Shown one piece after another: positions 7,654 through 32,523 of a stretch of DNA of 32,523 nucleotides (positions within the stretch are counted from its first letter, which is position 1; the number at the start of each line of letters is the position of its first letter). The position numbers were made by a program, and so were the translations under genes. Origin of the DNA: Candidatus Thorarchaeota archaeon. Lineage in GTDB: Archaea > Asgardarchaeota > Thorarchaeia > Thorarchaeales > Thorarchaeaceae. Location of the stretch: contig JAEOUM010000036.1 in the NCBI GenBank assembly GCA_016839275.1, positions 1-32,523 on the forward strand, in the 5' to 3' direction. A model generated the notes under the pieces. The model was given only the letters and a program-made list of their open reading frames with translations. It searched no databases and had not been told where the DNA came from.

Positions 7654-9624
7654 TCAAGCCCCTTCTCGGGTGGAAAGGTACTCTTGAATCATTGCTGATA
7701 TTTGTCCATCTGTATAGTGCTGGGAAGATATCGCTCCACTTGCACATGTTGAAGTGCATGTACCACAACCCTTGCAGAGTGCAGGATTCACCTCTGCGTA
7801 TCCTCTCTCGTTCAATGCCACAGCGTTGTATGGACACACCGAGATACATACCTGACATCCCGCGCACCTATCTTCATCCACCACAGAATAATAGGGCTCA
7901 ACATTGATTTTTCCTTTCCCCATGAGAGCCATTGCGCCAGATGCTGCTGCCTTTGCCTGTGCCACGGTGTCTGGAATATCTTTTGGCCCCTGTGCCATGC
8001 CTGCTACGAAGATGCCATCATTGAAAGAATCTACAGGACGGAGTTTGGGATGTGCTTCGAGTAGAAATCCGTCTGGCGATATGCTCAGGTTCAAAGCATG
8101 AGCGATTTTATTTGTTGCATCTGCAGCCACTACACCGGTCGATAGCACGACAAGGTCCACATCATCCAACTGAATGGGTTTCCCAAGTAGAGTATCCTCA
8201 CCCCGTACCGTCAGGGACATTGTTTCGTCGTTCTGGAGAATCTCACCGACGCGTCCTCGAATGAATGTGACGCCTGCTGCAGCTGTGCTTTCATAAAATT
8301 CCTCATAGCCCTTACCAAATGTTCTGAGATCGATGTAGAATACATAGATAGTAGCCCCTGTCTTGTCGCGAATCATTCGAGCCTGTTTGATTGCTGTCAT
8401 GCAACAGACTCGTGAGCAGTATTTGTTGGAGAGTTCATCACGACTTCCAACACACTGTACGTATACAATCTTCTTTGGTTCCTTAAGATTTGATGGTTTC
8501 ACGACATGACCCCGTGTTGGTCCTGCTGAGCTAAGCATTCGTTCAATCTCGCCAAGATTGACAACATTTGGGAAATGACCGTAGCCGTATTCTTCTTTCT
8601 TGGAAGCCTCAAACAAATCAAAGCCTGTTGATACAATGATTGTGCCCACCTCAACCTCGATGATCTTTTCTTTGTCATCATAGCTGATTGCTTTCGCCTC
8701 GCACTTATCTTCACATTTTCCGCACTTGACCGCCTCTACACCAAGGCAGTTGTCCATATCTAGAACATATGCGGAGGGTACTGCCTGGGCAAAGGGGATA
8801 TAGATTGCTTTTCGATAAGTAAGAAACGCATCAAACTCAGCAGGTATGTCAACAGGACAAATGTCTGAACAGTCACCACATGATGTGCATTTCTCGATGT
8901 CTACATATCTGGGATTTTGTCTTATCTTTACCTTGAAATTTCCAACGTATCCCTCAACTTCTTCAACCTCTGCCATGGTCAGGAGTGTGATATTCTCATG
9001 ATTTCCAACCTCTGCCATTCTAGGTGTCAGAATACAGCTCGAGCAATCCAAGGTCGGGAAGGTCTTGTCCCAGCGACTCATTTTTCCTCCAATACTGGGT
9101 TCTTTCTCAACGAGGTACACGTTAAAGCCAGCATTTGCCAGGTCCAAAGCCGCAGAGATCCCTGCTATGCCAGCACCAACTATGAGCGTTGCTTTTTTGA
9201 TTGTCACCTCTGTTTCTTCTAATGGCTCTAAAAGTCTAGCTCGAGCGATTGCCATTCTGACAAGATCAATTGCTTTCTCTGTTGCTGCTTTTGGATCATC
9301 AGCATGAATCCAACTCACATGTTCCCTGATATTGGCAATCTCCAATAGGAATGGATTGAGCCCTATCTCACGAAGTGCCTGTCTAAAAGTGGGCTCGTGC
9401 ATTCGCGGAGAGCAAGATGCAATCACGATACCATTCAGTTTATGTTTCTTTATACTATCCTTGAGAATTTTCTGTCCGGGCTTTGAGCAGACATACTTGT
9501 AATCAGAAACAACCTCGACATCTGGAAGATTCTCGACTGCTTGTCTGAGGACCTCTAGGTCAACCACACCAGCAATGTTACTTCCGCAGTGGCAGAGAAA
9601 AACGCCAATTCTTCTTTCAGGCAT
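7654..9624 (-). CDS. hdrA: Heterodisulfide reductase-like subunit A (FAD, Fe-S), HdrA copy 1
   Basis: 656 residues. The start chosen is the ATG at 9624, because GGAAAGGAG lies just upstream and the protein begins directly at the conserved R-I-G-V-F-L-C-H-C-G; the frame extends to 9690. HdrA holds the bifurcating flavin of Hdr complexes. Seen: N-terminal domain with C11/C13; S-C-S-P-R-M-H-E near 70-77; Rossmann motif G-A-G-I-A-G at 150-155; D-C-S-S-C-I-L at 193-199; a ferredoxin insert with C246, C249, C252, C256 and C301, C304, C308; the C-V-G-S-R-D ... Y-C-S-R-V-C-C region; two C-terminal [4Fe-4S] motifs. In the last motif the usual Pro after the fourth Cys is Ala. C197 occupies the position that is selenocysteine in some methanogens. 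It follows hdrB in the operon and precedes mobA. Confidence 0.95.
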   Translation of the reverse strand: MPERRIGVFLCHCGSNIAGVVDLEVLRQAVENLPDVEVVSDYKYVCSKPGQKILKDSIKKHKLNGIVIASCSPRMHEPTFRQALREIGLNPFLLEIANIREHVSWIHADDPKAATEKAIDLVRMAIARARLLEPLEETEVTIKKATLIVGAGIAGISAALDLANAGFNVYLVEKEPSIGGKMSRWDKTFPTLDCSSCILTPRMAEVGNHENITLLTMAEVEEVEGYVGNFKVKIRQNPRYVDIEKCTSCGDCSDICPVDIPAEFDAFLTYRKAIYIPFAQAVPSAYVLDMDNCLGVEAVKCGKCEDKCEAKAISYDDKEKIIEVEVGTIIVSTGFDLFEASKKEEYGYGHFPNVVNLGEIERMLSSAGPTRGHVVKPSNLKEPKKIVYVQCVGSRDELSNKYCSRVCCMTAIKQARMIRDKTGATIYVFYIDLRTFGKGYEEFYESTAAAGVTFIRGRVGEILQNDETMSLTVRGEDTLLGKPIQLDDVDLVVLSTGVVAADATNKIAHALNLSISPDGFLLEAHPKLRPVDSFNDGIFVAGMAQGPKDIPDTVAQAKAAASGAMALMGKGKINVEPYYSVVDEDRCAGCQVCISVCPYNAVALNERGYAEVNPALCKGCGTCTSTCASGAISSQHYTDGQISAMIQEYLSTREGA

Positions 9625-9725
9625 GTGTAGTACTCCTTTCCAATGATGACTCTGGTCGTATATATCACCATCAGCAATCTCGCGCGTCATAACGTCAGTA
9701 ATAAAGTGTTTCGGGATTGAGCTGC

Positions 9726-10643
9726 TTATGGACTTGACGGAATAGAATCTTTAGCTCCTGTTTTTCTTTCTTCCTTTGTTTCAGCACTTGCTGGAAGTTC
9801 AATCTTCACTCTATGCTCTGCTAGTAAGATATCCATCCCGGGCAAATTCATTGCAATGGCAAGAAGCTCTGTGTAATAGAAGACCGGGAACTTGAAATCA
9901 GTTCCAAAGATCCTGTTTGCAACTCGCTGACCAGACTCAAACGTTATGAAGCAAGTTGGGCAAAACACAACTATTGCATCTGGTTCGACCATCGCAATGC
10001 TTGTCATCTTCTCCCGCAGAACCGCATACGAGGTAACTGAGTTTGTCTTTCTGACCCCTGCGCCACAACACATGGTCTTGTCCATATAATCCAGCGGCAC
10101 CATGCCTATTGCTTCACATAGCATATCTAGTTTCACAGGCACCTCCGCGCTATCAACATGGAGGATTCTCTCAGGTCGCAAGAGGTGGCATCCTGTGTGA
10201 GTCACAACTTTGATTGGAACTGGCTTAACAACTTTCGAAGAAATTGTTTCAATGCCAATCTCATCGAATAGTTGCTGATGCATATGGACAATCTTTGATG
10301 TGCCTCTATACTCAAGACCAAGGCCTTTCAGAAGCTCGTTTACTTTATTCTTTCTTTCAGGCTTTTTGTCCAATTCATGTTTTGCAAGAGATAATGATTC
10401 ATGGCATCCTGCGCAAGCAGTAAGAATATCAAGTCCTTCCGCTTCTGCAAGTGCAATATTTCTTGCGGCGAAAGTTATCCATGTGTCATCAGACAAGGCT
10501 CGAACGGTATTTGGCTCCGGACAACATGTGAATGCTAAATCAACTAATTCAATGTCAAAATGAGGTGCTACCATTCTGATGGACTTTTCTGCAAAAGGTA
10601 GTCGATATGCCATTGTACAACCGGGGAAAAAGGCGAACTTCAC
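9726..10643 (-). CDS. hdrB: Heterodisulfide reductase-like subunit B (HdrB, two CCG domains)
   Basis: 305 residues. HdrB carries two noncubane [4Fe-4S] clusters that cleave a heterodisulfide such as CoM-S-S-CoB in methanogens. Both CCG motifs are complete: C9, C40-C41, C77, C80, and C152, C192-C193, C228, C231. The start overlaps the hdrC stop by four bases (ATGA). The last roughly 40 residues, after A-E-H-R-V-K-I-E-L, are a polar lysine/glutamate/serine tail not needed for the fold. The physiological disulfide in a non-methanogen is unknown, since HdrB-like proteins also act on other thiols or merely pass electrons. Its neighbours show that it belongs to an HdrABC-MvhD complex. Confidence 0.96.
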   Translation of the reverse strand: MKFAFFPGCTMAYRLPFAEKSIRMVAPHFDIELVDLAFTCCPEPNTVRALSDDTWITFAARNIALAEAEGLDILTACAGCHESLSLAKHELDKKPERKNKVNELLKGLGLEYRGTSKIVHMHQQLFDEIGIETISSKVVKPVPIKVVTHTGCHLLRPERILHVDSAEVPVKLDMLCEAIGMVPLDYMDKTMCCGAGVRKTNSVTSYAVLREKMTSIAMVEPDAIVVFCPTCFITFESGQRVANRIFGTDFKFPVFYYTELLAIAMNLPGMDILLAEHRVKIELPASAETKEERKTGAKDSIPSSP

Positions 10644-11146
10644 TCAGACGCCTCCTCTACCGCTTTTCTATTTAGTTCCACAACCTCTGCTGCCCCAGTA
10701 GCTCGAAATAGCATCTGCACATCTGCAGGATTTGCTCTAGGCAATTTTGGTAATCCCATATCCTCTCTCTGCTTCTCAGACCTACTAGATATGGGCGACT
10801 GACAACCATCCGCCATCAAGGACTCTGCGGATTCGATAACATCTGGAGGTGCTTTACCCTCCCTTGCTGAAATGTTTTTGATTACCATCAGGATTTCAGC
10901 GAGTGAAACTCCCATCGGACATCTTTGATCACACATGAGACAATAGGCACATAACCACTCATTCCCTTCTGATGGGACCTTTCCTCTACTGATGATCGAA
11001 TCAACTGATAACCTCGGATTCAACTCAGGTGACACTCGAAAGACTGGACAGGATGAAGAACATACTCCACACTGAAAGCATGGAAGTGCTGTTTCCTTGA
11101 GTTCCTTGAGCTGGTTTCTTTGAAAATCTTCACCCATGTCACTCAC
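10640..11146 (-). CDS. hdrC: Heterodisulfide reductase-like subunit C (HdrC)
   Basis: 168 residues. HdrC passes electrons between HdrA and HdrB through two [4Fe-4S] clusters. Both motifs are intact: C23-x2-C26-x2-C29-x3-C33-P and C66-x2-C69-x2-C72-x3-C76-P, followed by the usual G-V-S-L-A-E-I-L helix. Four-base overlaps at both ends, with the hdrA-mvhD stop and the hdrB start, show tight translational coupling. Length is near that of methanogen HdrC. The C-terminal region after about 100 is polar and variable, with L-P-K-L-P-R-A-N-P resembling an interaction segment. Confidence 0.95.
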   Translation of the reverse strand: MSDMGEDFQRNQLKELKETALPCFQCGVCSSSCPVFRVSPELNPRLSVDSIISRGKVPSEGNEWLCAYCLMCDQRCPMGVSLAEILMVIKNISAREGKAPPDVIESAESLMADGCQSPISSRSEKQREDMGLPKLPRANPADVQMLFRATGAAEVVELNRKAVEEASE

Positions 11147-13689
11147 TTCTTCCTTGTAGTCTTCTTCTGACTCGCACCCTTGCTAGGGCTACGTGGTTTT
11201 CCTGCTTGTTTGTCTTTAGACGTGGTCTTTGTTTTTGATTTAGCAGACTTTTCTGATTTGGCGACGGTTTGTGTTTTGGGCGTAGGAATATTCTTCCTAG
11301 GTGTCTTTACCGCATTTGCCATCTCTGTCATGATGGTTTGCCACTTCTTTCCTTCTCCAGCGGACACCCACTCCACTCTGAACCGTTCGTCCTCAATATT
11401 ATTTCTCTTCATCCATCCTCTGATTCTAGGTTCTCGCTTTGCCATCCACACATTACCTGTCTGAAAATGGCAATCTGCTGGTAAATGACATCCTGAATAG
11501 AGGACAGCCCCCGCTCCAAGTTCAAATGCCTTCTGAGCGAACTTGACAGAATACCTTCCAGAGCACATTGCTCGAATAACTCGTGCATTTGTTGGATATT
11601 GCATGCGTGACACACCAGCAAGATCAGAGCCTCTATATGAGCAAAACGCACACGCGAAAGCAACTATCTTATCACTTGGATTTTCTGCAAGTGCTGTCTC
11701 AATCTGAGCTTCTATCTGCTGACTTGTAAAGTTCGGCATGTAGATTGCATCTTGTGGGCAGTCTCCAGCGCACGTCCCACATGCTTGGCAGAGTGCTCCC
11801 ATAATTGTGAATTTGCCTGTCCCATCCTGAGAAATAGCGCCATAGGGACAGCGGCTCACGCATGTACCGCATCTACTACAGAGATCTTGCATTATCTTTG
11901 CACTCAAGGCTTCAATGGGGTATCTTCCTTTTTGTAGAATAATTGCTGCTCTGCCAGCAGCTGCACTTGCTTGGATTACCGAGTCACGGATATCCTTTGG
12001 GCTCTCTGCGCCGCCGCAAATGAAAACGCCTGCTGAGCTTGTATCAACAGGTTTCAATTTTGGATGGGATTCGATGTAGAATGAATCACTTGTACAAGAG
12101 ATCGGCAGTGGAAAATCCCCGGCTGCGCCTTCCGCTCCCATTGAAAGGATGACCATGTCAAAGGTTTCCATGCTCAGTTTGTTATGGGTAGTGTCTTCTA
12201 CACTCACTCTGAGATTCTTTGTATCTGGATATTGTTGAATCTCTCCAACTCTGCCCCTGATGAACTTCACGCCCTCCTCTCTCGCCTTAAGATATTGGTC
12301 TTCGAAGTACTTTCCGTGCATCCGTAGGTCTTGGTAGTAGATGGTCACCTCAGTATCAGGATAGTGTTCCTTGATGAGGAGTGCGCACTTGACCGACTCT
12401 GCACAACAATAGTTCGAACAAGCTGAACGCGTCCCAATATCTCTTGACCCCACACACTGGGCAATTGCGACTGATGTGGGTTTTATGAGGTCCGATGGAC
12501 GAACCAACTTACCTTCAGTGGGTCCTGCCGCGTTGATGAGGCGCTCAAACTCTAAGGTTGTAATGACATTAGGAAACCTGCCCCAACCTAGACGCGGCGT
12601 CTTACTAGGGTCTGCTGGTTTGAATCCTGTTGCCAGAATGATGACTCCTACATCAAAGTCGATGTATTTTGCTTTGTCTGATGGGATTATCGCTTCTTGT
12701 TCGCAACGGTCGATGCATTTACCACACCTAATAAGATCCATTCCAAGACAGGCTTCCGGATCTATGAAGTATGAGGATGGTACAGCTTGAGGAAATGGAA
12801 TCTGAATGGCTTTCTGCCAGGTGAGGTTCTGATCTGTCCTACTTGGAACATCCACAGGACAGACTTCAACACAGTCTCCGCAGGAGGTGCATTTGTCCAT
12901 GTCCACATATCTAGGACGTTGCTTAACACGCACCTCAAAATTCCCCACATAGCCTGATATGGATTCGACCTCTGCCATTGTTATCAGGCTGATGTTCGGA
13001 TGTTTTGCCACATCAACCATCTTTGGCCCTAAGATACAGATTGAGCAATCGTTCTGAGGAAAGACCTTGTCAAGTATAGCCATGATGCCACCAATGGTGG
13101 GCTGCCGTTCTACCAGATGTACCTTGAATCCTGCATCAGCAAGGTCAAGAGCCGCTTGCATCCCAGCAACACCAGCACCCACTATAAGAGCTGCCTGAGT
13201 CACTGGAACATCAAGCTCTGGTTGGGCAACAAGAGTTGCTGCTTTTGCTACTGACATTGCTATGAGGTCCATCGCCTTCTGAGTTGCAGATTTAGGATCG
13301 TGTTGATGAACCCATGATACATGTTCCCGGATGTTGGTCATAATACAAAGATATGGATTCAAGCCTGCAGCCTTCACAGTCTTCCTGAAAGTATCCTCAT
13401 GCATCGTGGGACTACATGAAGCAACTACGATTCTGTTGAGTCCATGCTGAGTAATTGCTTCCTGTATCTCTCTTTGTCCTGGATCCGCGCAAGTGTAAGT
13501 ATTGACTTGAACATGAACAACACCAGGGAGGGTCTTTGCATATTCTGCGACAGCATCAATATCTACAACAGCTCCAATGTTTTTTCCACACTTGCATGGA
13601 AAGACGCCAATGCGAAGCTCAGGCTCTGAGGAAACCACTTCCGCTTCCGGAGGTCCTGCACTACTTCCTTTTGGATGGCTTGTGGTCAT
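11143..13689 (-). CDS. hdrA: HdrA-MvhD fusion protein with lysine-rich tail
   Basis: 848 residues, first gene of the operon; the upstream GAGGA supports the ATG. Residues about 25-670 are a full HdrA: C-K-C-G near 32-35, S-C-S-P-T-M-H-E, Rossmann G-A-G-V-A-G near 171-176, D-C-S-I-C-I-L at 214-220, ferredoxin motif C-T-S-C-G-D-C-V-E-V-C-P, and two C-terminal clusters (C-S-R-C-G-T-C-V-S-R-C-P and C-Q-A-C-G-T-C-A-G-D-C-P). Residues about 673-795 are MvhD/FlpD: F-A-C-A-F-C-S-Y-R-G-S-D-L-A-G, R-A-M-C-S-G-R, S-G-C-H-L-P-A-D-C-H-F, W-V-S-A-G-E-G. MvhD links Hdr to a hydrogenase or formate dehydrogenase; HdrA-MvhD fusions are known in some archaea. The last 53 residues hold about 15 lysines and no acidic balance. 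C218 stands at the position that is Sec in some methanogen HdrA. Confidence 0.95.
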   Translation of the reverse strand: MTTSHPKGSSAGPPEAEVVSSEPELRIGVFPCKCGKNIGAVVDIDAVAEYAKTLPGVVHVQVNTYTCADPGQREIQEAITQHGLNRIVVASCSPTMHEDTFRKTVKAAGLNPYLCIMTNIREHVSWVHQHDPKSATQKAMDLIAMSVAKAATLVAQPELDVPVTQAALIVGAGVAGMQAALDLADAGFKVHLVERQPTIGGIMAILDKVFPQNDCSICILGPKMVDVAKHPNISLITMAEVESISGYVGNFEVRVKQRPRYVDMDKCTSCGDCVEVCPVDVPSRTDQNLTWQKAIQIPFPQAVPSSYFIDPEACLGMDLIRCGKCIDRCEQEAIIPSDKAKYIDFDVGVIILATGFKPADPSKTPRLGWGRFPNVITTLEFERLINAAGPTEGKLVRPSDLIKPTSVAIAQCVGSRDIGTRSACSNYCCAESVKCALLIKEHYPDTEVTIYYQDLRMHGKYFEDQYLKAREEGVKFIRGRVGEIQQYPDTKNLRVSVEDTTHNKLSMETFDMVILSMGAEGAAGDFPLPISCTSDSFYIESHPKLKPVDTSSAGVFICGGAESPKDIRDSVIQASAAAGRAAIILQKGRYPIEALSAKIMQDLCSRCGTCVSRCPYGAISQDGTGKFTIMGALCQACGTCAGDCPQDAIYMPNFTSQQIEAQIETALAENPSDKIVAFACAFCSYRGSDLAGVSRMQYPTNARVIRAMCSGRYSVKFAQKAFELGAGAVLYSGCHLPADCHFQTGNVWMAKREPRIRGWMKRNNIEDERFRVEWVSAGEGKKWQTIMTEMANAVKTPRKNIPTPKTQTVAKSEKSAKSKTKTTSKDKQAGKPRSPSKGASQKKTTRKK

Positions 13690-25680: not shown

Positions 25681-26673
25681 TTGACGCGCCTTGATGACAT
25701 TGTTGATTTATTACTCAACTTTGATGGCATCTCGCGTAAGTTCGTCCTTCCATCTATTATTGACAAGTTACGACTGAGTTCCTTCAAGGGAGATACACCT
25801 CATGGCCTCGGAGAGGATTCTGCTGCTATCTTGACAAACTCTAATGATGTTGTCCTTCTTACAACGGATGCTATCGTGGAAGACTTATGTCTTGGTCACC
25901 CTAGAGCTGCTGGATTTAACGCAGTACTCGCAAACATCATGGATATCTACGCAGCAGGTGGTACCCCAACTTCATTTGCTGTTGCATTATCCTACTCCGA
26001 CCCTGAGATTGGAAGTGCGATGCTCGACGGACTGATTGCTGGTTCACACACTTTCAAGATTCCTATTGTGCGAGGGCATACCAATCCTCGCTCATCATCG
26101 ACTTATGTTGTAGGATCTGCCACAGGTACTGTACAGAAGGATGACCTGCTCACTGCTGGCGGAGCCATGGCTAACAATATTCTTGTCCTTCTTTTCGATC
26201 GAAACGGTCAGAGGGGTGCACATTATACTCTTGGTTGGGATTCAGTCACTGACCGCCCCTCTGATGAGATTGTGCACAGATTATCAGTCATGAACATTCT
26301 TGCTGAACAGCACCTTCTCACTGCATCAAAAGATGTTTCCGTGGCTGGCATTGTGGGAACCGCCGTCATGATGCTAGAGTATTCTGGGAAGGGTGGTACA
26401 CTCTTCCTAGATGAGATCGAGAAGTCAAGACCATCAGAAATCCCGTTAGAAGACTGGCTCAGAATGTATATCTCTCTGGGTTTTCTTGTCGCTACATCGA
26501 AAGAGAACTACTCGAAGCTAGAACATATTGCAAGGGATCACTCTCTGTCTCCCTGTATAATTGGAGTTGTTGATAATTCAAGAGAAATCAAGCTAGCTCT
26601 TGAAGGAGAGGAGCGTATAGTCTTTGATTTCACCAAAGGACCAGTACTCACTCCAAAGAATGACCACGAATGA
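25681..26673 (+). CDS. AIR-synthase-related protein (PurM/ThiL/HypE superfamily, Sll0787 or methanogenesis-marker-2-like)
   Basis: 330 residues from TTG, with GGAGTGA six bases ahead. The superfamily makes acyl-phosphate or ATP-activated intermediates (PurM, ThiL, HypE, SelD). Seen: H-G-L-G-E-D-S-A-A-I near 41-50 (the 'G-x-D-A/S-A' ATP/metal strand), L-L-T-T-D-A-I-V-E-D at 59-68, A-A-G-F-N-A-V-L-A-N-I-M-D-I-Y-A-A-G-G, P-I-V-R-G-H-T-N-P, and S-K-D-V-S-V-A-G-I-V-G-T-A-V-M-M-L-E. The pattern is closest to the Sll0787/marker-2 subgroup as I recall it. It is not SelD: the N-terminal Cys/Sec-containing glycine loop is absent. The exact substrate is unknown. Confidence 0.8.
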   Translation: MTRLDDIVDLLLNFDGISRKFVLPSIIDKLRLSSFKGDTPHGLGEDSAAILTNSNDVVLLTTDAIVEDLCLGHPRAAGFNAVLANIMDIYAAGGTPTSFAVALSYSDPEIGSAMLDGLIAGSHTFKIPIVRGHTNPRSSSTYVVGSATGTVQKDDLLTAGGAMANNILVLLFDRNGQRGAHYTLGWDSVTDRPSDEIVHRLSVMNILAEQHLLTASKDVSVAGIVGTAVMMLEYSGKGGTLFLDEIEKSRPSEIPLEDWLRMYISLGFLVATSKENYSKLEHIARDHSLSPCIIGVVDNSREIKLALEGEERIVFDFTKGPVLTPKNDHE

Positions 26674-28930: not shown

Positions 28931-29028
28931 ACATATCTCTCCTACATTCCACCACATAAACTACTCTGATTTCGTTTTGTAATGACCAAGGGTTTATGTT
29001 CTCTTTGCACTGTGTCTTGCAGAGAGAT

Positions 29029-30426
29029 ATGATGGACTCACTACTCCCTGTTCATGTTGGTCTGATGGGTCATATCGACCATGGAAAAACTGCATTAGCT
29101 CGGGCATTGAGTGAACAGGTTTCTACTGCTGGACTTGATAAACATCCCCAAGCGCAGCAACGCGGTATCACCATTGATCTCGGATTCACAATGTTCGCGC
29201 TTGATAAGTACCTAGTGACGTTGGTTGACGCCCCAGGTCACGCTGATCTAATTAGAAGTGTTGTTGCCGGTGCAAACATAATAGATTCTGCTATTTTGAC
29301 TGTGGCAGCAGATGAGGGTCCTAAGGTCCAGACCGGTGAGCATTTGGTGGTTCTTTCTTCACTAGGTATTGACTCCGTTGTGGTTGCTATTACTAAGATC
29401 GATAGTGTGAGTAATCAACAAGCTGACAATGTTGAAACTCGGATGAGAAGTGTGATTGAGGATACTGGTTTCAAAAACGTGGCGTTTGTTCAGGTGTCCG
29501 CTCATAGAGGAGTAGGTATTGACAAGTTACGTAAAGCCCTTCTCAGTGTACTTGTCCCTAGAGTCCGTGATAAGGATAGTCCTTTTCTAATGCCTATTGA
29601 TCACAGTTTCCCGATTAAAGGACATGGCACCGTGACAACTGGTACGATACTTCGGGGAAAAGTTGCGCAAGGAGATTTGATTGAAATCGCTCCACTTGGT
29701 GTGAGTAGTAGAGCCCGTTCCATTCAGACCTTTAGCCAAAATCGGGCTGACGCAGCAGCAGGAGATCGTGTCGGAATCAATATTCCTGAGGTTGAGCACT
29801 CACTGATTACTCGCGGTAATTATCTATGTTCTCCTAAGAGCGTCCCTTCCTCTGATTGTCTTATTGTTCATATTGCCACAAATCCATTATATCGTGGAAA
29901 AATAACAAAGAAAATGGTTGTGAGTGTTGCTTTGGGCATGCCGGTTCTAACAGGACAGATTATCCCCTTTCAGCTGGAAAAAGGTCTTCGAGTTGTAATG
30001 GATTCGATTGATGAGGATGAGTTTGATGCAGCTCTAGTACTACAGCAATCTGCGGCTATAGATGTACAAGCTAAGATTCTACTTCTGAGGACAGACCTAC
30101 CTCCTACTCAGATGAGGATTATAGGGTCTGGCACAATTTCTGAAATTCCAGATAGTATTCTTTTGCACAAGAGAAGGTCCCGCACGGGCAAAGTCCAACG
30201 CATTCGAGATGGAGACATTCTTGTTGAAGGACTCGCTTCTAGTAAGAAGGCTGCGGAGCAGTTGATAGGCTTTCAAGCGAGGACCAGAAGTGGAGTAGAC
30301 GGAATTATTAAGGCATCATTTGGAACAAGAGGCGTCGTTTCCGTAGAGTTTGATACTCCAATAGGAGATAATGAAGAAGTCGTCTATGAGCGGTTTATAG
30401 AGGAGGAGTATAACTTTGGACCATGA
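29029..30426 (+). CDS. selB: Selenocysteine-specific elongation factor SelB (aSelB/EFsec)
   Basis: 465 residues from the first of tandem ATGs (29029, 29032); the frame opens at 28996, but no homology supports the extension. SelB is the GTPase that brings Sec-tRNA to in-frame UGA codons. Translation-factor motifs: G1 G-H-I-D-H-G-K-T, Q-R-G-I-T-I-D-L-G-F (switch I; the I-T-I-D-L-G-F pattern is typical of SelB, in place of the I-T-I-x-x-A-x of EF-Tu), D-A-P-G-H, T-K-I-D, and S-A-H-R-G-V-G-I. K-G-H-G-T-V-T-T-G-T starts domain II. The short domain IV at the C-terminus matches archaeal/eukaryotic SelB and lacks bacterial winged helices. Its stop overlaps the sepSecS start. Confidence 0.95.
   Translation: MMDSLLPVHVGLMGHIDHGKTALARALSEQVSTAGLDKHPQAQQRGITIDLGFTMFALDKYLVTLVDAPGHADLIRSVVAGANIIDSAILTVAADEGPKVQTGEHLVVLSSLGIDSVVVAITKIDSVSNQQADNVETRMRSVIEDTGFKNVAFVQVSAHRGVGIDKLRKALLSVLVPRVRDKDSPFLMPIDHSFPIKGHGTVTTGTILRGKVAQGDLIEIAPLGVSSRARSIQTFSQNRADAAAGDRVGINIPEVEHSLITRGNYLCSPKSVPSSDCLIVHIATNPLYRGKITKKMVVSVALGMPVLTGQIIPFQLEKGLRVVMDSIDEDEFDAALVLQQSAAIDVQAKILLLRTDLPPTQMRIIGSGTISEIPDSILLHKRRSRTGKVQRIRDGDILVEGLASSKKAAEQLIGFQARTRSGVDGIIKASFGTRGVVSVEFDTPIGDNEEVVYERFIEEEYNFGP
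30402..30408 (+). promoter_or_regulatory. Shine-Dalgarno site of sepSecS (TTG start)
   Basis: GGAGGAG within the last codons of selB, seven bases before TTG at 30416. It shows translational coupling. Confidence 0.7.
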
Positions 30427-31735
30427 TGAGATTGACAGGATCTTGGACAAAACAATTCCCGAAAGCATTGCGCGCCGAGGTCGAACAACTATTGATGCTC
30501 TGATGGCTCCGATTAGGGATGTTTTGAATCGACGTGTTTTCCCAGACAAATCAATGACAGATTCGCAGCTAGAGTTACTAGTCCAGATTCTCTCGTCAAT
30601 GGACACCGATAAGGATCCAGAAGCTGCACGAGTAGGTGAACGTGAAGCTCGAATCGCGTCGCCATTCATCGGTACCCTTTCAGCAGGTTTCAATCATGGA
30701 ATTGGAAGAAGTGGTCAACTTGATGCACCTCAACCGAAGGCCGCTGGCGCTACTCTGATGCAGCAGATTGCCAATACCATTGCACTTGATGCTATTCGAA
30801 AGCTCGGATTAAGTAATGTGAAATCTGGTATTGTAACTCCACTGTCTACAGGAATGACACTTGGTCTTGTACTAGGGGCTATGCGGAGAGAGTTGCATGT
30901 TCAGAGAGTGCTATACCCTCGAATTGATCACCTCTCACCCCGGCGAGGAATTGCTCTGAGTGGACTAGAGGAGGTGCGGGTATCAACATTGATAGAAGAT
31001 GATGCTGTCAGAGTCGATATGGGTGATTTAGAGAAGCACATTTCCAAGACCAAGTCCTCTGCAGTCTTATCTACTTCAACCTTCTTTCCACCAAGAGAGT
31101 CTGATCCCATCAAGGCAATTGCACGACTTTGTGCGGACAATGATACCCCTCACATTGTCAATAATGCCTATGGTGTTCAATCACAGGAAGTCATGGCACA
31201 ACTACGGTCTGCTATTGATGCTGGTCGTGTTGATGCAGTTGTCCAAAGTAGTGACAAGAACTTCATGGCTCCAGTAGGAGGTTCTATTGTAGTTTCTCCG
31301 AAACCAAATATCATTGAATGGACAGCTGATACTTATGCAGGTCGAGCTTCAGCAGCTCCCGTAGTACAGACACTGTCGGCTCTTCTGGCGCTAGGTCTTG
31401 ATAGGTATAAGGTCCTCCAAAAACAACAGGTAGAGAATCTTGCACTTCTCAAAGAGCACCTTCAAAAAGTTGCTGACAATCATGAGCAACGAATTCTTGA
31501 TGTCAAAAATCCTGTAGCCTATGCTATAACCATGAACGGACTTGATGTTAACGAGATTGGAGCTCGGCTCTATAATGCTCGAGTCACTGGTCCAAGGGCT
31601 ATTGATGCTGGAGCTTTCGGCTCTTCTGTTGATAAATATCCTCATAGCTATATTGTGATGAATGCAGCGATTGGAGTGAGCCCTGAAGATGTTGTGACTG
31701 CGACAACCAAACTTGATAAGGAAGCTGGCAGATAA
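30416..31735 (+). CDS. sepSecS: O-phosphoseryl-tRNA(Sec) selenium transferase (SepSecS)
   Basis: 439 residues from TTG, overlapping selB by 11 bases. A PLP enzyme that converts Sep-tRNA-Sec to Sec-tRNA-Sec with selenophosphate. Hallmarks: G-I-G-R-S-G at 95-100 followed by Q-P-K-A-A-G (phosphate/substrate loop, nearly identical to the human protein), P-L-S-T-G-M-T-L near 142-149, N-N-A-Y-G-V-Q near 249, and the Schiff-base lysine K281 in Q-S-S-D-K-N-F-M-A-P-V-G-G. Length matches archaeal members. Its presence means Sec is made by the archaeal/eukaryotic two-step route, so PSTK and selenophosphate synthetase must be encoded elsewhere. Confidence 0.96.
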   Translation: MDHDEIDRILDKTIPESIARRGRTTIDALMAPIRDVLNRRVFPDKSMTDSQLELLVQILSSMDTDKDPEAARVGEREARIASPFIGTLSAGFNHGIGRSGQLDAPQPKAAGATLMQQIANTIALDAIRKLGLSNVKSGIVTPLSTGMTLGLVLGAMRRELHVQRVLYPRIDHLSPRRGIALSGLEEVRVSTLIEDDAVRVDMGDLEKHISKTKSSAVLSTSTFFPPRESDPIKAIARLCADNDTPHIVNNAYGVQSQEVMAQLRSAIDAGRVDAVVQSSDKNFMAPVGGSIVVSPKPNIIEWTADTYAGRASAAPVVQTLSALLALGLDRYKVLQKQQVENLALLKEHLQKVADNHEQRILDVKNPVAYAITMNGLDVNEIGARLYNARVTGPRAIDAGAFGSSVDKYPHSYIVMNAAIGVSPEDVVTATTKLDKEAGR

Positions 31736-31764: not shown

Positions 31765-32418
31765 ATGACCGCAGCAGAAGAACAAGCAAAGGTTTCTCGA
31801 ACTATAAAATACAGCTCCGAAGAGGCTGCAGCAGTGTTTCGCATTGCTTGGTATATGATAGCCTCTAAGCCTAATGTTCTCCTTGAAGAATATAGTGAGG
31901 GCGAAGGTCAAGAATTCAGTGGCACAGCTCGCTTCTCTCTAAAGATCGCAGGAGAAGATGCTATGGCAGCAATTCGTCTAGACGGTGCACAATCATCATT
32001 GGAGATTGATACAGCAGGTATGGATGAAGTAGCACTTGGAGCGTACGTAAATGGCTTCATTGACTCAATCAAGGATGCTATTAACAAATACCAATCCCTA
32101 CCAGAAGAGGATCGTGGGCGTCTTCGGAGAGCGTTGATGGCAAAGAGCTGCTGGGACCGTATGGTTCGTGAGATTCTGAACAAGGCTCCTATGACTAATA
32201 TCTACTATCAAATAGCTCACGGAAGAGAGATGATAATTAAGGCACTTGAGGGCGATCCTGGTGTGTATCCAATCACTCTGACAACCTCTGCTTGGTTATC
32301 ACAAATAGAAACACATCCCAAGGATGAAACCCTTCCAGGATTTGTTGCCTCTGAACTGGCTAAGAAAAGCGTTGAGTGGAAACGGGAAACTCAAGAAATC
32401 ATCAGCCGTTACATTTAG
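31765..32418 (+). CDS. Unrecognised 217-residue protein in the selenocysteine cluster
   Basis: 217 residues; GGGAG upstream of the ATG and 29 bases after sepSecS, so almost certainly co-transcribed. I do not recognise the family. It has an N-terminal helix (E-E-A-A-A-V-F-R-I-A-W-Y-M-I-A), a strand-rich middle (about 35-85), and a helical C-terminal half with basic patches (R-G-R-L-R-R-A-L-M-A-K; H-G-R-E-M-I-I-K; A-K-K-S-V-E-W-K-R). One cysteine (C129), no zinc ribbon, no P-loop. It is therefore not PSTK, and it shows no SelD glycine loop. It lies between sepSecS and the tRNA-Sec gene, so a role in Sec synthesis or decoding, such as an RNA-binding factor, is a reasonable guess but not shown. 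Confidence 0.8.
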   Translation: MTAAEEQAKVSRTIKYSSEEAAAVFRIAWYMIASKPNVLLEEYSEGEGQEFSGTARFSLKIAGEDAMAAIRLDGAQSSLEIDTAGMDEVALGAYVNGFIDSIKDAINKYQSLPEEDRGRLRRALMAKSCWDRMVREILNKAPMTNIYYQIAHGREMIIKALEGDPGVYPITLTTSAWLSQIETHPKDETLPGFVASELAKKSVEWKRETQEIISRYI

Positions 32419-32461: not shown

Positions 32462-32523
32462 GGCCTTCTACAGAGCTAGTGGTCTGGCTCCGTGGGCTTC
32501 AAACCCATGATCGTGCAAGCGAT
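32462..32523 (+). tRNA. selC: Selenocysteine tRNA (tRNA-Sec, anticodon UCA), 3' part beyond the window
   Basis: Predicted 5' strand of a 9-base acceptor, GGCCTTCTA, starts at 32462. Two linking bases (CA) follow. The D arm is 7 pairs with a 4-base loop: GAGCTAG / TGGT / CTGGCTC (32473-32490). The anticodon arm is 6 pairs around the loop CTTCAAA (32491-32509), with anticodon TCA at 32499-32501. A variable arm ATCGT / GCAA / GCGAT (32510-32523) then reaches the window end. A 7-pair D stem with 4-base loop is the archaeal tRNA-Sec type; a 6-pair anticodon stem and long variable arm are general tRNA-Sec features. The T arm and acceptor 3' strand are outside the window. It lies 43 bases after the unknown gene of the Sec cluster. 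Confidence 0.88.

Follow-up and report, generated by a model that had tools for sequence, protein, structure and literature searches.

The selenocysteine gene cluster and its truncated tRNA gene

The stretch of DNA that was analysed, here called the window, spans an entire contig, 32,523 nucleotides long (G000:C214:1-32523), in a Thorarchaeota draft assembly of 239 contigs that is 84% complete. The window closes with a cluster of selenocysteine (Sec) genes in which a tRNA-Sec gene stands last and runs into the end of the contig. The genes of the cluster and the arms of the tRNA are as follows.

28996..30426, + strand: selB / aEFSec, selenocysteine-specific elongation factor (TIGR00475, 294.9 bits, over the cut-off; Pfam aSelB_III)
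30416..31735, + strand: sepSecS, O-phosphoseryl-tRNA(Sec) selenium transferase (TIGR03531, 452.5 bits, over the cut-off)
31765..32418, + strand: Sel_Asgard family protein (NF045535, 219.7 bits, over the cut-off; synteny; AlphaFold2 mean pLDDT 93)
32462..32523, + strand: tRNA-Sec, the 5' 62 nt or first two thirds (covariance models; 62/62 identity to the complete gene L019)
32462..32470, + strand: acceptor stem 5' strand GGCCTTCTA, 9 nt (pairs 9/9 with TAGAAGGCC in the congener gene L019)
32473..32490, + strand: D arm, 7-bp stem GAGCTAG/CTGGCTC and 4-nt loop TGGT (7/7 pairs; covariation in relatives)
32491..32509, + strand: anticodon arm, 6-bp stem CGTGGG/CCCATG and loop CTTCAAA (sequence and covariance-model alignment)
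32510..32523, + strand: variable arm ATCGT-GCAA-GCGAT, 5 pairs (sequence; its last base is the contig end)

A two-base linker, CA, joins the acceptor strand of the tRNA to the D arm, and the UCA anticodon lies at 32499-32501, inside the loop CTTCAAA. A lineage covariance model (R1), built from 26 complete tRNA-Sec genes with the window gene and the identical L019 excluded, picked out 32462-32523, at 63.9 bits and E 4.8e-14, and no other part of the window. When the short stretch was scanned alone, the Rfam model RF01852 matched the same positions as a 3'-truncated tRNA-Sec (23.8 bits, E 0.0054), a score that falls below the gathering score of 47 because the gene lacks one third of its length. 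Scanned over its full extent, the window gave no match with Rfam and no call with ARAGORN; as the short-stretch scan showed, both misses arise because the gene is cut and 31 of the 91 model positions are absent. The matches to the two models bear out the sequence-only reading that first named this stretch a tRNA-Sec, and the D, anticodon and variable arms that it described are all present in 32462-32523.

Relatives provide a second line of evidence. Complete tRNA-Sec genes of relatives exceed the RF01852 cut-off in 31 of 59 genomes, and across the tRNA-Sec structure 72 cells are changed on both sides of a pair, versus 17 in shuffles. Among the 26 relatives compared for the D-arm helix, 97% of cells are paired and five of the seven pairs have changed on both sides, as have three of the five pairs in the variable arm. 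The 7-bp D stem, another element of the original description, holds up well: all seven pairs form in the window, and a D arm of seven stem positions and a 4-nt loop is found in each of the 30 related tRNA-Sec genes that were scored (7/7 pairs in 25, 6/7 in 5).

The T arm, G73 and the acceptor pairing were read from a congener, genome G010 (L019/L194), since the window ends at 32523. The G010 gene is identical to the window over 62/62 nt and then runs on as AAGAGTTCGATTCTCTTAGAAGGCC-GCCA, with a 4-bp T stem (AGAG/CTCT), the acceptor strand TAGAAGGCC paired 9/9, G73 and CCA, so that its stems measure 9/7/6/5/4. The T arm and acceptor 3' strand expected past 32523 would thus read AGAGTTCGATTCTCT-TAGAAGGCC-G or an equivalent. 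A complete 9/4 acceptor/T arm with G73, which had been named as support for the original identification, is accordingly present in the identical G010 gene, while the window itself holds only the 9-nt 5' strand. The missing 3' third (T arm and acceptor 3' strand) was sought elsewhere in the window's own assembly and was not found there. In another genome (G023, L201) the contig likewise ends inside tRNA-Sec, as would be expected if a stretch common to related strains breaks the assembly, and we infer that near-identity of this stretch between co-occurring strains caused the break in the window as well. G010 also has about 1.9 kb of inserted sequence that the window lacks, with two open reading frames (179 and 201 aa) between Sel_Asgard and tRNA-Sec (L194:6263-7429).

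The failure of ARAGORN and of the whole-window Rfam scan is what might be expected of a chance fold, or of another long-arm tRNA (Ser or Leu) mistaken for tRNA-Sec. That reading has a negligible probability in the face of the UCA anticodon, the 7+4 D arm, the 9-nt acceptor strand, the neighbouring Sec genes and the E value from the lineage model, and it is refuted by the complete, identical gene of G010, which ARAGORN called as tRNA-SeC with anticodon tca. Positions 32462-32523 are a genuine tRNA-Sec, ordinary for its lineage, and the window almost certainly ends inside a standard Thorarchaeota (Asgard) tRNA-Sec gene of archaeal type, of which an assembly break has left the 5' two thirds.

The order selB-sepSecS-Sel_Asgard-tRNA-Sec places the tRNA within its presumed pathway. 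Nearly all relatives have Sel_Asgard between sepSecS and tRNA-Sec, and most members of the family keep the order sepSecS-Sel_Asgard-tRNA-Sec with a convergent PSTK gene just past the tRNA; PSTK was not found in the window's own 84%-complete genome. The translation start of selB is probably a few codons downstream of 28996. SelB and SepSecS are encoded in the window and SelD elsewhere in the same genome. Going by the known pathway, SerRS would charge tRNA-Sec with serine, PSTK would phosphorylate the Ser-tRNA using the 13-bp acceptor/T helix and the D arm, SepSecS would exchange the phosphate for selenium from SelD-made selenophosphate to yield Sec-tRNA, and SelB would bring the Sec-tRNA to UGA codons of SECIS-bearing mRNAs. 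The AIR-synthase gene at 25681-26673 was examined as a possible SelD and set aside, with 31.5 bits against the TIGR00476 model, whose cut-off is 125. The HdrA genes of the window were likewise rejected as selenoproteins, their translated frames having no internal stop. Positions 7654-13689 hold HdrB- and HdrC-like genes flanked by two HdrA2-like genes, and the 848-aa HdrA2-like copy has a C-terminal VhuD/MvhD-like domain with Cys, not Sec.

Archaeal and eukaryotic characters of the tRNA

A question of wider interest is whether this tRNA is in part eukaryotic. The sequence-only reading saw in it a mosaic, joining a D stem of archaeal type to a core like that of eukaryotes, that could mark an intermediate toward the eukaryotic Sec system. 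The core consisted of AGTGGTCTGG in the D arm and GGCTTCAAACC in the anticodon arm, which that reading gave as identical to the mammalian tRNA-Sec. With the Rfam consensus as a guide, eukaryotic tRNA-Sec also resembles the genes described here in the 9/4 fold, the TGGT D loop and the CTTCAAA loop; it differs in a 6-bp D stem and the pair U6:U67, whereas in the relatives scored here the D stem has 7 bp and positions 6 and 67 are paired.

The anticodon-arm string does not discriminate between the two types, because 27 of 30 relatives have it and the CUUCAAA loop belongs to the Rfam consensus, with which GGCTTCAAACC agrees and in which the loop and its flanking G-C pairs are marked as conserved. 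The D-arm string is found in only two of the 30 relatives (L019 and L026), with GGTGGTCCGG, GGTGGTCTGG and others in its place elsewhere in the genus, and the D stem that holds it varies by compensating pairs across the family. The match of AGTGGTCTGG, apart from the TGGT loop and the closing G-C, thus reflects just one of the states through which this stem drifts. The case for a eukaryote-like core is therefore weak, one string being the family consensus and the other a rare state of a freely covarying stem.

Other characters give the same picture. The eukaryote-specific pair U6:U67 (PMC9499178) is absent from all 30 relatives (T-T in 0/30), and 6:67 is paired in every one; position 6 of the window tRNA-Sec is a T, and in the identical gene of the congener this T pairs with A. 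With seven D-stem pairs, the window gene does not have the 6-bp D stem of the eukaryotic type. A D stem of 7 bp is the norm in published archaeal tRNA-Sec; it has been described for Methanococcales and Lokiarchaeota (PMC5330540), and a 6-bp D stem for the tRNA-Sec of Sifarchaeia (PMC9723677); both lengths thus exist among Asgards, which indicates that stem length is labile and is no marker of a step to eukaryotes. The best solved relatives of two proteins of the cluster are archaeal: SepSecS reaches 348 bits with 2z67 but 247-254 with mammalian chains, and SelB reaches 340 bits with 4ac9 but 203 with eEFSec, although evolutionary rate may contribute to these differences.

The mosaic reading can draw on the Asgard lineage of the genome, on the eukaryote-like SECIS of selD and on published arguments for a transition in the Asgard Sec machinery (PMC11227280, PMC9723677). 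We nevertheless consider it very unlikely, given that its eukaryotic strings are a family consensus or a rare state in the genus, that U6:U67 is found in none of the 30 relatives, that methanogen chains give SelB and SepSecS better scores than mammalian ones do, and that a published tRNA-Sec tree was poorly supported and Asgards differ among themselves in the length of the D stem (PMC9723677). The proposed evolutionary intermediate is not borne out, and the tRNA has no feature that places it between the archaeal and eukaryotic types. Asgard Sec systems as such are already published and are not new here. The comparison thereby settles a claim that was tempting to make: although it looks part-eukaryotic, this Asgard tRNA-Sec is a normal archaeal one, in which the shared strings are either conserved family-wide or free to vary within the genus. 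Evidence for a transition from archaea to eukaryotes is to be sought in SECIS elements and protein trees, and not in this tRNA.

By published description (PMC5330540), the tRNA-Sec of Methanococcales is like that of the window in its 7-bp D stem with 4-nt loop, UCA anticodon and long variable arm, and in the 9/4 fold with G73, seen here in the congener. The relatives of the window differ from these in a genome-encoded CCA, which follows G73 in all 30 Asgard tRNA-Sec genes scored (L005-L034); according to a review, the CCA of archaeal tRNA-Sec is not genome-encoded (PMC9499178). Lokiarchaeota share with the window and its relatives the 7-bp D stem, the 9/4 fold, the sepSecS and Sel_Asgard neighbours and the encoded CCA. 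As cited in two later papers (PMC5330540, PMC9499178), the published Lokiarchaeota tRNA-Sec of Mariotti et al. 2016 has a 31-nt intron in its T arm, whereas the Thorarchaeota tRNA-Sec genes have none.

Sel_Asgard and the apparent loss of Sec in congeners

Two congeners, G006 and G011, appear to have lost Sec. Both lack SepSecS, of which the syntenic site retains a short remnant. PSTK and an above-cut-off SelD were not detected in either genome, and SelB was not found at the locus. G011 (L196, G011:C387:25500-31500) has kept its tRNA-Sec in degraded form, and in G006 (L174, G006:C136) no tRNA-Sec was detectable at the locus. These losses, and the degraded gene persisting in G011, raise the possibility that the window tRNA-Sec is itself a pseudogene or a decaying copy. 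We regard this as highly improbable, as all visible pairs of the window gene are intact and the same genome has selB, sepSecS and a Sec-containing selD; the reading of a standard gene cut by the assembly is the one we retain.

Sel_Asgard is intact in both congeners, with a dN/dS of 0.078 between G011 and the Sec-using genome G009. The G011 protein is 89% identical to that of G009 and 68% identical to that of G006, and this disparity suggests that Sec was lost separately in G011 and G006. Such recent losses inside one Thorarchaeota genus merit a separate study. Sel_Asgard is also present in Asgard genomes without detected Sec genes (e.g., G052), and it therefore probably has a Sec-independent role, its name notwithstanding.

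The AlphaFold2 model of Sel_Asgard (pLDDT 93) has a C-terminal helical domain that is like the C-terminal domain of VPS28 (2j9w; TM 0.71 by target, with a weak E of 0.18). A related Lokiarchaeota protein of 788 aa (L202:2402-4768; L203:147-2495) matches the Pfam families PCI, E3_UFM1_ligase (UFL1), DDRGK and VPS28, and its VPS28 match covers the region corresponding to the C-terminal domain of Sel_Asgard. The predicted VPS28-like domain is a lead rather than a result. One might speculate that a VPS28-like Sel_Asgard has, besides a job independent of Sec, a part in the synthesis or insertion of Sec, and that the cassette, not the tRNA, would be the Asgard-specific step toward the eukaryotic system, but we think this unlikely.

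Insertions in Lokiarchaeota tRNA-Sec and the SECIS-like element of selD

Six of the eight Lokiarchaeota tRNA-Sec genes have an insertion of 29-34 nt in the 5' strand of the D stem (L119, L089, L070, L095, L058 and L207), and its removal restores 7/7 D-stem pairs in all six. Four of the six have, in addition, about 30 nt inserted in the T arm, a feature known from published work. The D-arm insertion is flanked by GTCGGAA or a similar sequence on one side and CGATAAG on the other, which is compatible with a bulge-helix-bulge splice site, and we regard it as a putative intron. The literature searched described no D-arm intron in Lokiarchaeota tRNA-Sec, the T-arm intron being the only one found; Sun et al. 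(PMC9723677) reported that some Lokiarchaeia have unusual insertions and deletions. The putatively intron-bearing genes are missed or mis-aligned by standard searches, and they too merit separate study.

The selD gene of the window's own genome (L035, G000) has an in-frame TGA at the catalytic site (HG-U-SCK) and an eSECIS-like element at its stop codon. This SECIS-like element covaries in 22 Thorarchaeota selD genes, that of G000 included (51 both-side cells, against a shuffled mean of 14.8). In 21 of the 22 (drawn from L035 and L219-L239), the UGA stop forms part of the [A/G]UGA core of the SECIS, the coding sequence includes the 5' strand of the lower stem, and an additional covarying hairpin precedes the 3' strand. 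A stop codon that overlaps the SECIS core has been published for Lokiarchaeia, and a GUGA core for the selD of Thorarchaeia (PMC11227280). Six relatives (L211-L216, e.g., L216 in G007) have a Cys-containing SelD homolog over the SelD cut-off, with the motif G[LM]GCACKLR, in open frames of 532-782 aa, the length of which suggests a fusion protein.
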